DNA from: Fragilariopsis cylindrus CCMP1102
Lineage: Eukaryota > Bacillariophyta > Bacillariophyceae > Bacillariales > Bacillariaceae
DNA: 64,000 nucleotides
Assembly: GCA_900095095.1 (NCBI GenBank)
Contig: FMBT01000304.1
Location: 248,001-312,000, forward strand
Reading direction: 5' to 3'
The notes below the pieces were generated by a model that did not search any database, was not told the DNA's origin, and saw only the letters and a program-made list of their open reading frames with translations. Position numbers and translations under genes: made by a program. This document shows positions 57,451 to 64,000 of the stretch, in pieces (within the stretch, counting starts at the first letter, position 1; the number at the start of each line of letters is the position of its first letter).

Positions 57451-59748
57451 TTAAGGAATTGCTCCAATAGGGAACATTACTCCATTGACAACGTGTGCAA
57501 CTCCATTGCCTACAAAGGACAGAGAATAGAAGGAGGAGAGAAATAAATTTGGAAATAGAGAGAGAGAAATGAGCGGTGGACGGATAGTGTAATGAATGAA
57601 ACAACAAGGACAAAAAGCAGGTATATAAGAAACGTACAAAATTTGATATCAGTTTGAATGATCTGAGCAGAGTTATCAAGTTGGTCATTCCCGGCACCAT
57701 TCTGATACATTGCATCATTGTTACATTTGGTGCGACTTGAATCACCATTGAGCATTTGAACTTTTTCTGTACACTTGAGGTCATCGCTGCTGAGAACTTT
57801 ACCAGCAACGGCGTGAAACATAAGCTAGATAGAAAGGCAAGTGGTAAAAACAAAAGAATTACATATTTAGCAAGGCAAGGTTTCTTAAAGGAGTTGATTG
57901 TGATATACCAAATAAAAGAACTTATCAACGTACAATATTGGTGATAGCGTCATTGGACAATGATCCAAGTAACTCTCCAGAACTCTCAATAGCCTCATCG
58001 TTTGGAATGAAAACAGTCCATGTTTCTTTGTCAAAGGAGGAATCTAGATTAGCAGCCTTCAATGCATCACAGAAAAGACCAAAATCCTTGCTGTCGCAAA
58101 CGATGTTTTCTGTTATATTTATAAATAAGTAGAGAACAAGGAATGTCAATATAATTATCAACTGTGTTTGACTATGAAATAGATTCAAATGAGCATCGAA
58201 TTATGAATAAGAAGCAGATAAACTTACCGAGTGTTTCACACTTATCATCGTCATTGCTGTTGCTCTCACCATCTCCTAGCATGTTTTCTGGATCAACAAT
58301 AGTGACAATGGCACATTGAGTCCAAACCTGTGGTGTTTGTTCGGAATCCCATCTCCAGCTAACAACATAATCACCACTTAGACCTTCAGGGACCTTCAAT
58401 TTGTCAACAACTTTCCAACTAGAAAGAACTGCTTGCAAATCAGGAGAATTTGCAACTGGGTAGGAGCCTCCTTTGCCGTAATATCCCGGAGGGGCGTGAT
58501 CAGTGAACTGTGGTCCACGTGTGCATTTAGTCTCATCACCAATTTTCCAGCCGGCGCATGGAGGGATACCAATTTTCCTCCATGTGCTACCCTTTGGCAT
58601 GACACCGTCGGTATTATCGTCATTTATATCCATTGCATCAAAGGTAATGTTTACGGTAACGGTGCCATCATCAGCCATTGCAATAAATAAAGATTTATCA
58701 TTGGCGAATTCCATCACGGTCGATTGAAAGCAGCTTTCGTCGAGTGTGTTGTTATTTAAATTCTCGACAGGACAGAGACGATATTGATGCCCTCCGCCAT
58801 GATTGGCTCCCACGTTATACGCCCCTTCAACAATTTCCCCTGCAGTCCAAACAACCGGATATGCAGCCACCGAGTCACGCTGCGCATTTTGCATCTGCAT
58901 ATTCACTGCCGAGGATAGGACAGTAGATCCTAAAGTTCCGGCGGGAGGGTCCATATACATGGGTGGCAGTTCTCCATTGACAGCTGCCCCATCTCCGGAT
59001 ATAAGATTGAGGAAATCATTGCCGGGTCCAGCAATGAAATCTATTGCATTTTTGTATTTCCATCCACCAAGAACACCGCAAGAATCTAGGACGGATGCAG
59101 TTCCAGGAACAAACCATGGATTGCCTGAGTTAATTGATGCAGATACATTGCCTTTGTCTACCTCGGCCTGTCTATATTCCATATCCTTTACACACTCTTT
59201 GGTATCATTTTTATAATGTAAGGCTGCGAGATAGCCATTGCTAAAGTCGCAGTCGCCATCAAAGTAGAACTTCGGGTTCGAAAGCTGGTCTATACTTTTT
59301 AAAGTAGGTTCCATCAATTCTTCGCAGAACCCCCACTTTCCGTTTGGATTTTCACCCTACAAAGAGAAAAAGGAAGATAGAAAGAGAAAGTAGAACAAGG
59401 CCAGGTGATGAGTTTACAATGGCTTAAAAGTTCATGTATCGCATTTGCAAGGATTATTGCTCTATTAACATGATCATACCATAAAGCCGTACTTACGGTT
59501 GCCTTGCATCCTGGCGCTGTTCCCGTTGTAAACCAATGAGCATTGTAACCAAGGAACGCTAATTGAGCATTACTAGTCACATTATAATATTTATCGTACC
59601 CATTAGATAAATTTTCAGCGCATTCATCACGGCAAGGAGTTAGCATACGCTCCATTCCCTCTGGATCAATCAATGTAGCATGTCCTAAAACGGATAGAAC
59701 CGCAGAAGAGGTGATGGTGATTCGAAGGCATGCACTACTAAGCTTCAT
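57451..59748 (-). CDS. LPMO-like (chitin-binding type-4) protein fused to a C-terminal fasciclin domain, five exons
   Basis: Exons are 59497-59748, 58228-59356, 57934-58109, 57638-57824 and 57451-57509; introns of 140, 118, 109 and 128 bp are all GT-AG with matching phases (0, 1, 0, 1), giving 600 residues. The signal peptide would be cut before His23 (SVLG|HATLIDPEG), leaving an N-terminal histidine, the first ligand of the copper histidine brace. The second ligand lies in GANHGGGHQYRLCP (His270 or His274). VVSWRWDSEQTPQVWTQCA before residue 440 is a further LPMO-like strand pair. Residues 461-600 form a FAS1 domain: WTVFIPNDEAI, LMFHAVAGKVLSSDDLKC, a YQNGAGN loop, and CNGVAHVVNGVMFP at the end. 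LPMOs oxidise polysaccharide chains outside the cell; FAS1 domains mediate adhesion. I infer a wall-tethered oxidase. Its substrate is not predictable. Confidence 0.8.
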
Positions 59749-60527
59749 TGTTGTATTGTTCTATTGATATTTGTTTATCGGAAAAACTTCCTTTTCTTCT
59801 CGTGTTATTGAAATTATGTGCTTTAAATGTGACTGCCTTGGTTTTCTAATTTGATTAAAAAAGAAAAAACGATCTTAAAAATGTCATGCATTACGGTACG
59901 TTAGCTACCGGTAGCTAGTAGTGATGCAATTTTTGGTCAAGCTCAGACAAGATTCATCCCTCACTTCTTCTCTTTCAAATCTTCTCTTTCCTATTTCGCG
60001 CAATCAGTTTAGCGCCATCAGTTTAGCGCTATCGGTTTCGCGCTAAAAATGTTGAACCGATGAAAGTGTTAGAAGAATCGGCGGCGCTTTCGCTCTCCTT
60101 CTTTAACAAAAAGAACAAGAAAAGAAGAATTCAACATCAGCATCAACGTTTGTGAAAAATAATGGTAGCCTTAACTAAAGTTTAAGCAGTGAGGTGCAAC
60201 CGTGTTAAAATTTACTTAAAGCACACAATATGCTTTCGTTTTGGAATACAATTGATCGATTTTCTTAAGAAATGGATTTAAGTTGTTTCATTGCGTTGTA
60301 TAAGTAAGAAACGTCTTCGATTTGGCGTACTTTTTGATCGTCCTTATTTGTGATACTACAGTAAACGTAAAAGAACTACAAGGATAGCTAACAAAGAATA
60401 CAGCTACAATTACGCGAAATGAAGAATTTATAATTATTGTAATTAGTATGTATTGCAATAATTGAACACTTGAAAACGTAACGCACGTGTATCTCGAAAT
60501 GTTTAAAAACAGCTTTTTGAAAATATT
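59749..60527. other. Intergenic region upstream of the LPMO-FAS1 gene
   Basis: Contains the TTT(A/C)GCGC motif array (59994-60044) annotated separately. No open frame of note. The S8-FAS1 gene ends at 60528, so this is its 3' flank and the LPMO gene's promoter region. Confidence 0.5.
59994..60044. promoter_or_regulatory. Four-fold TTT(A/C)GCGC array, 14-bp phased, E2F-like
   Basis: tttcgcgc (about 59995), tttagcgc (60008), tttagcgc (60022) and tttcgcgc (60036), linked by 'catcag'-like spacers, lie about 245-300 bp before the LPMO-FAS1 start. TTTCGCGC matches the E2F/DP site consensus TTTSSCGC; TTTAGCGC is one base off. Regulation is an inference. Confidence 0.45.
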
Positions 60528-63500
60528 TTATGCAACAGGAGGAAGCATAAGAATATTATCTACCAAGTGAATTATTCCTCCATTACATATTTCGATATCA
60601 GATTCAATTATCATTGGCAACCTATCATCTTGATTTCCAAGTCCTTTCTGATACAGGGGGGCGTCGTCCTCACAAATAGTTACACTATCATCATCATTGC
60701 TCATTGTAATAGTAGCATTACAATAGAGATCGGTCTTGAAGAGTTTCCGACCGAGCACGAAATGGTATAAAAGAACATCACTGAGATCGTCGCCTTCACG
60801 AAGTGATACATTTGGATCAGATTCAAATGCATCGTTCGTCGGTGCAAATATCGTCCACTCAGAAATAGCAAGTTCACTGAGAGTTTCGTTTAGTCCAGTT
60901 CTTGTGATCGCATCACATAAGCCTGCCATGTAAGGTAATTGGCAGATTGTATCGGCTATGGAATATTGTAGAGAAAGCAGGCATCAGAACAAAGATGTCC
61001 ATTTAGAGCGTGTAAACTATCTTGCTGTTACTCAGTCACAAATCAATGACGACCGCAAGTTAACAATCAAAACGACAACAAATGAAGGACTTACATATTG
61101 ATTTACATAGTTGCACTTCGGTTAAGGGTCCGCCATCAAACACTTCGCTTAAGGGTCCGCCATCAGTAAAAGATTCTAGTTCGTCGGCTTGCATACGTAA
61201 TTCGTCAGTTCTTCCTCGTAGTCCACCACGACCAAACTCCACGTTATCTCTATCAATAGAAAAAAAATCCGTGAAATTGTTGCTACCATATACCACCACC
61301 TTCCATTCAAATAGATAATCGGGAAAGGAAGAGGGTGGGGCTCCACCTCCGCAGATGCAGCAAGCATCTGTCACCTTTAAACCATCATAAGAATCAGTTT
61401 CAAACTTATCCAGTAATTCACATGCTTCATCGATACCATCATTACAGAGTTTTCCGTAATATCCATTCTCGCGATCAATTTGCCCATCGGTACAGAAGCG
61501 CCGTAATAGAAAATCTAAATTGAATTCACAATGTAGGACTTCATCAACTGTGATATTACTAAAATCATCGAATAATTGCCATTGCCATTGACTTTTTCCG
61601 GAACAGCTATTGACGTCTCCTTGTACTGTATCGAATATCTCAATAGACCATTCGCCCTATAATTTGTTTGGTCAGTAGAAAATGAAAGTGGGAGTAAGAG
61701 TTAGTATACAATAAAAGTTTGAAAAGGAATCAAATCCCGGCTATTGCCAGGATGTGTGTACGTACATTTGGATTTTCACCCCTATGACGCACTGTAGTAA
61801 GTTTCATCCTAGAGAGAAACGTGAAAGAAGTGAAATTTGAGTCAATAGTGTGAGACGAGAGCATGACAAGAGAGAACACGACGACGACGACCATATTACG
61901 CACCATTCATCAGTTTGATCTTCGGGCCGGAATCCCGGAGTAAGTACCGATACCATGCCACCTAGAGCATGACAATCGAAACGTAACAGAAGAAGAAGAA
62001 AACGAAATCATGGCAGAAAAAATAGAGAAAATAGCGTAACAATGAGAAACATGCGTTAAAATAAGGGGTCGACGTGACCACGGACAAGTGCACGCATCCG
62101 CGTACATACCTGGAGACTTCAATTTAATTTGCAGATGTCCTCTTGACGTGTGATTCAATCGTAAGTAAATGACAACATTTTCCGTTACAAATGGTAATCC
62201 ACTATCGATTGTAACATTCGCTACGCTAATTTTCCCTTCACTATGATCAAATATTGGTAGATCCCCCGAACCTTGTCCTAGTAACATACGTTCTGGACCT
62301 AAGTTCGTATGAGTTACACTCATATTAACAGCTAAATCAGCATTAACAATACCGAATCCATACTTGTTGGAGTGTGATAGGTCTGCAGAATTTATCGCAA
62401 ACGTTGGATCGTTTGGATCGTTTACAAGTTGTGCTGACCGTGCAAGAATATCTTGTACGTCGCGCCATCCAAGATCTGGATTTGCTTCAAGCATCAACGC
62501 AACAACTCCAGAAACAACTGGATAATGCAGATTCAGTGTAATAGCAACAAGAAGAAGAAGACGTGACAAAAAAATATGTGTGAGCTCGTTGTAACGCCTC
62601 GATTAACTTTTGAATGCACATGCCTTTCGGTATATTATACTTTAAATAGATAAATTACTAACCTGGAGCAGCATATGATGTACCATCTCCAGCATCTGAA
62701 CATTTTCCACCGCTTACAGCAGCAATTACTGTCGTATGAGATTCGTGGGGATCCCCACCGGGCCCTGCAATAAAGATGGATGCGCCTGGTGTTGAAGAGC
62801 CTGCTACAAAACCAGACTTACCCACAGACGCAACAGGGATCGTAAACCTTGTACTTGCACCATATGATTGAAAGTTTGTATCATCGCCGTCGCTATTTTC
62901 ATTACCAGCAGCAAACACATAGATTATTCCCTTTCCATCTCGTCCATCCGTACTGTAAATTGGATAGAAAAAAGAAAGGAGTACATTGGCAAATTTTTGT
63001 TGGTAATCAAAATCCCACAAACAGACACAGACACAGACACACAATTCGAATTCGATACACAGAATTAGATAAAATTGAGTTGGTTTTTACTTACACACCA
63101 CGTGATAATGCTTCTCGTCCGGCCTCCTTTATATTTTTGAATTTACATTCTCCACCAGAGCTTGGGTAGTTTATTTCTAAAATCAGATCTAAATATTCCA
63201 CGCATGTTTTTTCTTCTTTCGTATAATAAAAATCACAATGTTTTACAACTGAATTAACACAATCTTCTCCCAACAAGCCTATTTCGATATCATTATCAAT
63301 ATCTACAGTATTTTGAAATAATGTACATATATCACAAGGGAACAGAAGATATCCGTCGAAAGGTTTATATACAAATGGACATTCAGTAGTTAATGTTGGA
63401 ACTACTGTTTGAACACCACTATCTTGAAGACTACGCTCAGGATCAAGTTGTGAGAGTTTGCCACAACCTTCGATTGCCCAAGAATTCTGTGAAATATCTA

Positions 63501-64000
63501 TTTGGTCTAATTTGTATGTTAATAATTCTGGAAATGACATTACACTACCCTCAGAATGACATGATGACAATGTAACTTGTGGTGCAATACCTACACCACA
63601 TTCATCATTATTACCTGTAGCACCAACAATTGATGCTTTTATTTATAAATTCAAAATGGAGAGAAATTAGATGAATTGAATAGAATCAGAGTTGGAATTG
63701 GAATGAACAAAGTGAGTGGGAAATGGAATAGAATTGGATGGTAATGAATGAAATGTCCCTTCCATCTTGTAGGTATGTGTATATTGTGTGTGTAGGTATG
63801 TGTATTTTTTTCTTTTTGGCTCTTTCCTTCATATCTAGCTAGTATCTTCACTTACCAACGACTGTGCCATGTTTAGCACCCGGTTGAATGGGATCAACTC
63901 CACCCACATCTTCATCACATGATGCACTAACATCAATTCTACCAGCAAATTCTGGATGTGATGATTCAATGCCTTCATCATTTACACGAACTCGTACACC
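60528..64000 (-). CDS. Kexin/furin-like S8 protease with P domain and C-terminal fasciclin domain, 5' end outside window
   Basis: Eight in-window exons: 63856-64000, 63095-63635, 62663-62952, 62110-62517, 61904-61961, 61766-61808, 61095-61656 and 60528-60955. Every intron (95-220 bp) starts GT and ends AG, and the phases agree throughout, giving 824 residues in the window; the signal and prodomain lie outside. The catalytic triad is Asp8 in VRVNDEGIES, His44 in AKHGTVVASIVG and Ser321 in GDGTSYAAPVVSG; the oxyanion Asn is in FAAGNENSDG. Residues about 395-530 are the P (homo B) domain that follows kexins (VTENVVIYLRLNHTSRGHL, NGEWSIEIFDT, QWQWQLF). A Cys-containing linker (DACCICGGGAPP) follows, then a FAS1 domain at 684-824 (WTIFAPTNDAFES, LLYHFVLGRKL, ICNGGIIHLVDNILMLPP). 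It probably cleaves proproteins in the late secretory pathway or outside the cell. The orientation and the FAS1 module are shared with the LPMO gene downstream. Confidence 0.85.

Follow-up and report, generated by a model that had tools for sequence, protein, structure and literature searches.

Two adjacent genes of the diatom Fragilariopsis cylindrus CCMP1102 each join an enzyme to a fasciclin (FAS1) domain with six conserved cysteines. They lie in a 64,000-nucleotide stretch (the window; contig C464, positions 248001-312000, of a 67.9 Mb assembly in 818 contigs), and coordinates without a contig name are counted from its first letter. Gene A encodes an oxidase resembling lytic polysaccharide monooxygenases (LPMOs) and gene B a convertase-like S8 protease. 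FAS1 domains confer adhesion in matrix proteins, kexins cleave proproteins, and LPMOs oxidize chitin or cellulose. The two genes are the visible corner of a larger genome-wide pattern. We propose that the six-cysteine FAS1 is an extracellular module found in at least six, and probably eight, enzyme families that are unrelated to one another and appear to be secreted, where it most likely serves as a tether; we assign this reading, which draws on a single diatom genome, a probability of about 0.58.

Enzyme and FAS1 domain form one protein

The sequence-only reading had described two same-strand neighbours, arranged head to tail and each ending in one FAS1 domain. Our gene models bear this out, with GT-AG at all junctions and both domains over the Pfam Fasciclin cut-off (PF02469, 22 bits). 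Gene A (57451-59748, minus strand) encodes 600 aa comprising a signal peptide, an LPMO-like domain, an acidic linker and the FAS1 domain. Its five exons occupy 59748-59497, 59356-58228, 58109-57934, 57824-57638 and 57509-57451, with the stop codon at 57453-57451. The FAS1 domain covers residues 456-600 (57454-58243, minus, three introns) and scores 74.6 bits (E = 1.1e-20; residues 469-595, model positions 2-123 of 123). Gene B encodes 986 aa in nine exons. The window holds 60528-64000 (minus), which encodes the S8 protease, a P domain with a cysteine-rich insert and the FAS1 domain; exon 1 and 22 bases of exon 2 fall outside it, and the start codon lies 670 bases past the window edge, in locus L031. 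FAS1 of gene B (residues 840-986; 60531-61110, minus, one intron) scores 49.9 bits (E = 4.6e-13; model positions 7-122 of 123).

Introns split FAS1 from the enzyme in both window genes, as would be expected if the FAS1 exons were separate genes that merely appeared fused. We regard such an artefact as very improbable. An enzyme exon already encodes the first FAS1 cysteine of each gene (C457 in A, C841 in B), and the splice sites are consensus. Elsewhere in the genome, comparable fusions occupy unbroken open reading frames (ORFs): an LPMO-FAS1 paralogue of gene A on C47 (L035, 551 aa), GDPD-FAS1 on C88 (550 aa; GDPD, 1.2e-18), FAS1-amidase on C268 (616 aa scanned; amidase, 9.1e-84) and FAS1-SGL on C265 (491 aa as scanned; SGL, 1.2e-14). 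Because these single-ORF fusions occur both in the LPMO family and in parallel genes, separate FAS1 transcripts are unlikely. Judged by sequence, we consider both the fusions and the special FAS1 type to be real.

A distinct six-cysteine FAS1 class

An extra cysteine pair and other atypical features had been noted in both FAS1 domains. The shared features are genuine and go further than was claimed: each domain has six cysteines, C1 to C6 (C457, C465, C474, C537, C553 and C582 in A; C841, C849, C858, C923, C939 and C968 in B), at 32% identity between the two domains. We counted cysteines in 66 non-redundant full-length FAS1 domains from chosen loci and found none in 1 domain, one in 31, two in 3, three in 3, five in 14, six in 12 and seven in 2. 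Many domains count as five-cysteine because the preceding exon encodes their C1, and the strict six-cysteine pattern fits 25 of the 66. Since loci were picked by likeness to a canonical FAS1 or to that of gene A, these class counts are no census. An alignment of 15 six-cysteine-class domains, taken from different genes, shows C2 to C6 without exception; as we read the genes, eight of the 15 have C1 in the preceding exon.

More than two cysteines occur in none of 162 FAS1 domains from 116 loci (36 viral plus the best 80 of 516 prokaryotic, a set that rarer cases may escape), which argues that the cysteines common to A and B are not a matter of chance. A recent bacterial origin of the six-cysteine FAS1 was rejected, the type being absent from those same loci. 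We also built a tree from 17 six-cysteine, 14 one-cysteine and 20 prokaryotic rows, the last being every fourth of the 80. A branch supported at 100/100 has all six-cysteine rows together on one side, and masking the cysteines (15 six-cysteine rows) gives the same branch. Within the six-cysteine group, several branches are long and the internal order is uncertain. Tandem duplication as the source of the FAS1 domains of A and B was also rejected: with the caveat of those long branches, A pairs with a domain of a proline/threonine (PT)-rich protein on C500 (88/77) and B with a GSDH-fused domain (95/94). One-cysteine rows are interspersed with prokaryotic ones, and the one-cysteine domains in the tree (from L001-L030) look as if they were acquired separately from the six-cysteine class.

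A and B also share a phase-1 intron at the same place in FAS1, between C1 and C2. It follows C-E-T-L in A (58227-58110, minus) and C-K-S-I in B (60956-61094, minus). A regular expression for the class, run over the chosen loci, returned 35 matches, and an intron join could be written for 17. Setting aside L071 for its unusual donor left 16 joins, all 16 preceded by C-x-x-[ILM]; these include two near-copy pairs, L051/L053 (with doubtful acceptors) and L059/L063. Ten of the 35 matches read as intron-less at that place (L058 doubtful). The other eight gave no join: six are not FAS1 by inspection, and the others are L014 and L070, the latter showing its join on recheck.

Variant domains hint at how the cysteines may pair. 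L068 and L069 have lost C1 and C6 together while keeping C2 to C5, and L028 has lost C2 and C3 while keeping C1, C4, C5 and C6. The second FAS1 of L070 speaks against a C1-C6 bond: it keeps C6 with Leu at the C1 place, and another Cys stands a few residues ahead of that Leu. C6 is lost in three of the 27 locus groups described below (C297, C189/C68 and C500:89k). Because joint loss fits in three of four informative variants, our best guess from these few cases is that C1 pairs with C6 and C2 with C3, leaving C4 with C5.

Unrelated enzymes carry the same module

After merging haplotype pairs, we read the chosen loci as 27 six-cysteine groups. Six of these have an enzyme domain over the Pfam cut-off: S8, GDPD, amidase, GSDH, SGL and FAD oxidase. 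The earlier suggestion of an enzyme-FAS1 toolkit is thus upheld, in that enzymes of several unrelated classes in this genome carry this one type of FAS1. Along with the single-ORF fusions above, an intron-containing gene encodes GSDH (3.6e-38), PKD and FAS1, with GT and AG at the GSDH-PKD and PKD-FAS1 joins. Another intron-containing gene encodes a FAD oxidase (FAD_binding_4, 1.7e-10) followed by FAS1; its exons were joined by eye, with splice sites not seen for all, and BBE scores 22.1 bits against a cut-off of 20.6 in the ORF carrying C1. Below the cut-off stand the LPMO-like partner, at seven loci, and a metallophosphatase-like partner on C324 (0.0033; splice sites not seen for all exons), for which no PDB match was found up to E = 1. 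On the 15 six-cysteine tree rows, labels of 'enzyme' and 'no enzyme' need five changes.

Non-enzyme partners include LRR, DUF285 and PT-rich or Cys-rich repeats. Ten further six-cysteine-class ORFs, when scanned, gave FAS1 and no enzyme domain. Pfam gave no match over the cut-off for the partners at C411:277k, C40:43k, C682 and C500:148k, and PDB none up to E = 1 for the one at C411:277k.

As a control, we scanned ten one-cysteine ORFs chosen from the 30 best loci, some of them near-copies; all ten showed FAS1 and no enzyme, as read from single ORFs, the six-cysteine genes having also been viewed across introns. Among 80 prokaryotic FAS1 ORFs (the best 80 of 516), Peptidase_M73 appeared in two (weak, best 7.4e-5) and Copper-bind in one, with no other enzyme-type match.

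Several side observations concern the architecture of these genes. An acidic stretch often directly precedes the six-cysteine FAS1, with 39-74% Asp plus Glu in most of the linkers picked; gene B (19%) and the GSDH fusion (25%) are exceptions. L046 (C411:275856-279269) and L060 (C40:41649-45074) seemingly share, by eye, the same FNR-like partner, with FAS1 N-terminal in one gene and C-terminal in the other. At L062 (C303:341178-344579) and L070 (C487:7000-9900), SSYCTYSPDxDCxxxGWPxCCGDDxxECPxEQPxCE repeats stand beside the six-cysteine FAS1, with no Pfam family over the cut-off in those scanned. L074 (C500:89200-94400) holds a 1672-aa frame of PS/PT-rich stretches, DUF285 repeats (1.3e-93) and a FAS1 that lacks C6.

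A candidate tether outside the cell

A paralogue of the gene B protease suggests what the module may do. On C411 (L080, C411:606500-608600; C411:604608-606598), an open frame of 828 aa runs from protease through P-domain region and a long PT-rich linker to a C-terminal transmembrane helix (Kyte-Doolittle (KD) hydropathy 2.35), with no FAS1 match at that place. Neither A nor B has a transmembrane stretch, the highest hydropathy after the leader being KD 1.39 in A and 1.29 in B. Tethering is favoured because FAS1 of gene B stands where this paralogue has its membrane anchor, in proteins that themselves lack such a stretch. Given that position and the variety of partners, retention outside the cell is the simplest role that all could share. 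Secretion of A and B is itself probable from leaders judged by eye, and the tethering function draws on the domain family, the paralogue's helix and the range of partners. That one FAS1 type is fused to many kinds of enzyme points to a general means of anchoring enzymes extracellularly.

Under this proposal, disulfides C1-C6, C2-C3 and C4-C5 would stabilize the FAS1 fold in the extracellular space, and the domain would keep its enzyme within the wall, the mucilage or the pericellular matrix. A tethered protease and LPMO-like oxidase would then act locally rather than diffuse off. We are more doubtful of a broader version, in which the six-cysteine FAS1 would be a general matrix docking module with one type of binding partner. 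It would gather the protease, LPMO-like oxidase, FAD oxidase, sugar dehydrogenase, lactonase-like enzyme, phosphodiesterase, phosphatase-like enzyme and amidase into one enzyme set in a shared pericellular layer.

Several points weigh against tethering. An enzyme domain over the cut-off is lacking in 21 of the 27 six-cysteine groups. FAS1 is C-terminal in A, B and the GDPD, GSDH, FAD oxidase and phosphatase-like genes, but N-terminal in the amidase and SGL fusions. PDB matches of the six-cysteine profile include the pigment-binding AstaP and the NDH-1 subunit CupS, so FAS1 has other roles. LPMO-like paralogues without FAS1 exist at C317/C341, C456, C557 and C72 (the last with two in-frame stops), and the LPMO-like enzyme as such therefore does not need the domain. 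The GDPD ORF as read shows no leader. Finally, a second copy of gene B on C251 (L032, C251:29001-39000), 95.5% identical over 4,800 aligned positions with an overall dN/dS of 0.25, has a one-base insertion in a short G run of exon 8, upstream of FAS1, and for this reason may be broken or misassembled.

The placement of FAS1 at either end of its partners and the many groups without a recognized enzyme would also suit a domain with no common function. Such a domain, expanded and easily shuffled, would have a different or small role in each gene, in folding or stability or as a glycosylation carrier, and that picture fits the number of FAS1 matches across the genome, which is at least 150 when 150 of 222 candidates are scored and partial domains and haplotype copies are counted. 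Against it stand the invariance of C2 to C6 across different genes, the absence of enzymes from the one-cysteine ORFs scanned, and a FAS1 dN/dS well under 1 in the one LPMO-family pair tested: between gene A and its C47 paralogue, the value is 0.38 for FAS1 (144 codons) and 0.30 for the oxidase (389 codons). We consider a lack of any common function distinctly unlikely.

Another possibility is that the module targets substrates in the manner of a carbohydrate-binding module (CBM), binding a particular polysaccharide or glycoprotein, with retention a mere side effect. The LPMO-like, GSDH and SGL partners could all act on extracellular polymers or sugars, and the FAS1-less LPMO-like paralogues may have other substrates. 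Yet a protease, a phosphodiesterase, an amidase and oxidases have no substrate in common, and the module also occurs on LRR and PT-rich proteins in which no enzyme domain was found. Substrate targeting thus seems to us an unlikely primary role, and we continue to favour the tether.

Gene B resembles a proprotein convertase

From its N-terminus, gene B encodes a leader, a PSI-like Cys-rich stretch, the S8 domain (Peptidase_S8, 2.1e-32), the P domain and FAS1. Furin is the top PDB match of the first 688 residues (E = 4.4e-45). Within the furin-aligned catalytic region (62676-63979, minus), Asp170 (63979-63977), His206 (63871-63869), Asn408 (62903-62901) and Ser483 (62678-62676) are all matched; we take these, from the S8 family, to be the catalytic triad (Asp, His and Ser) and the oxyanion Asn. 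About 100 additional residues separate the two furin-aligned blocks (query 272-382 versus furin chain 156-162). The P domain (61279-62206, minus) matches P_proprotein at residues 600-672 (4e-13; 49.7 bits against a cut-off of 21), and its insert and last strand were placed by eye. The Cys-rich insert, at approximately residues 700-762 (61530-61342, minus), ends in CCICGGG and precedes that strand.

The sequence-only reading had called this protein kexin-like. The furin-aligned residues and the P domain uphold that kinship; the pro-domain does not, as no N-terminal S8 pro-domain was found by Pfam at E = 1. In its place stands the PSI-like stretch, itself below threshold (14.5 against 23.1 bits). 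We therefore name the protein convertase-like rather than kexin. Compared with furin and kexin, gene B agrees in its S8 catalytic residues and P domain, and differs in the block of extra residues, the P-domain insert, the FAS1 domain and the missing Pfam pro-domain.

Gene A encodes an LPMO-like oxidase

Gene A opens with a putative 22-aa signal peptide (59683-59748, minus; hydrophobic residues 3-21, KD 1.52), with cleavage placed by eye at VLG|HAT. Directly after the leader comes His23 (59680-59682, minus), the expected N-terminal histidine of the mature oxidase; a His in this position is also seen by eye in paralogues L075, L077 and L078. The LPMO-like domain covers approximately residues 24-438 (58295-59679, minus, one intron). 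A second histidine, H270 (58801-58799, minus), sits in N-H-G-G-G and is invariant in six aligned paralogues, gene A included. The acidic linker DPENMLGDGESNSNDDD (58244-58294, minus; 39% Asp plus Glu) shares an exon with most of the oxidase.

A profile of the six paralogues matched one PDB sequence, AoAA13 (E = 6.6e-6). In this weak alignment, H270 corresponds to AoAA13 chain position 91, and chain position 224, a Tyr, to Trp429 of gene A, which is invariant in the six paralogues; positions 91 and 224 are presumably part of the copper site. Shared with AA13 enzymes are the weak profile match and, putatively, a histidine brace formed by the N-terminal and the second His. Gene A remains under the Pfam cut-off, and Trp429, aligned with the Tyr of the presumed axial copper position (Tyr or Phe in LPMOs), may be a further difference. 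LPMO_10 reaches 18.5 bits against a cut-off of 23, and no NCBIfam model matched up to E = 0.1. The LPMO-like label given to gene A in the sequence-only reading is accordingly a weak one: the profile match favours it, the sub-threshold score does not, and we go no further than 'LPMO-like'. Bacterial or viral relatives of the domain were sought by tblastn, and none was confirmed.

Adjacency of the two genes

The sequence-only reading pointed out that A and B are neighbours; a special meaning of this adjacency is not supported. On C251, neither the 5.2 kb downstream of the gene B copy nor any other part has an LPMO-like match, and the C251-C464 match ends shortly past the 3' end of gene B. None of the six other LPMO-FAS1 loci adjoins an S8-FAS1 match among the S8 candidates scored (46 of 126); none of the scored S8 matches falls on C501, C659, C81 or C645. 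On C47, an S8 relative lies about 80 kb from the LPMO-FAS1 locus, with no FAS1 match beside it. As the other copies scored lie apart, we rejected a functional A-B gene pair, and the adjacency is probably incidental. Silicon transporters mark the host as a diatom: Silic_transp gave 27 matches in the same assembly, every one over its cut-off.

Relation to known systems

The six-cysteine domain belongs to the same PF02469 family as the matrix proteins TGFBIp, periostin and fasciclin I, and periostin and TGFBIp are the top PDB matches of its profile. It differs from both in its six conserved cysteines and YQxGxGN loop. TGFBIp and periostin carry FAS1 arrays, whereas the diatom proteins often have a single FAS1 joined to an unrelated domain. 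CBMs, dockerins, SLH domains and LPXTG anchors are single modules added to many unrelated secreted enzymes. The diatom arrangement likewise places one module type on many such enzymes, the module here being a FAS1 domain.

Published work touches on parts of this picture, as far as the accessible portions of the articles go. Some AA15 LPMOs, like gene A, carry a fasciclin domain, for which membrane targeting was suggested in 2019 (PMC6950343). FAS1 has been recorded in about 140 diatoms, with transfers from bacteria inferred (PMC10939406), and three FAS1 proteins carry a raphid signature (PMC7335047). Nitzschia inconspicua has 22 fasciclin descriptions (PMC8329260), the available text of two further articles lists fasciclin proteins only (PMC8977783, PMC2945787), and a brown-algal fasciclin-like protein is mentioned in another (PMC8307928). 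In the literature searched, from which subscription journals were mostly absent and supplements were not covered, we found no description of a diatom FAS1 class spanning multiple enzymes.

Implications for diatom biology

Diatoms control a sticky extracellular layer that matters for gliding, biofilms, aggregation and carbon export. To our knowledge, how they keep enzymes in this layer is largely unknown. If our proposal is true, the six-cysteine FAS1 would act as a sequence tag, giving a handle on the pericellular enzyme set of diatoms, and would offer a ready-made module for enzyme display at the diatom surface. The unexplained FAS1 genes of diatoms would split into two classes with different likely roles. 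Should the more doubtful docking-module version also prove correct, the system would be a diatom counterpart of cellulosome or S-layer enzyme display.

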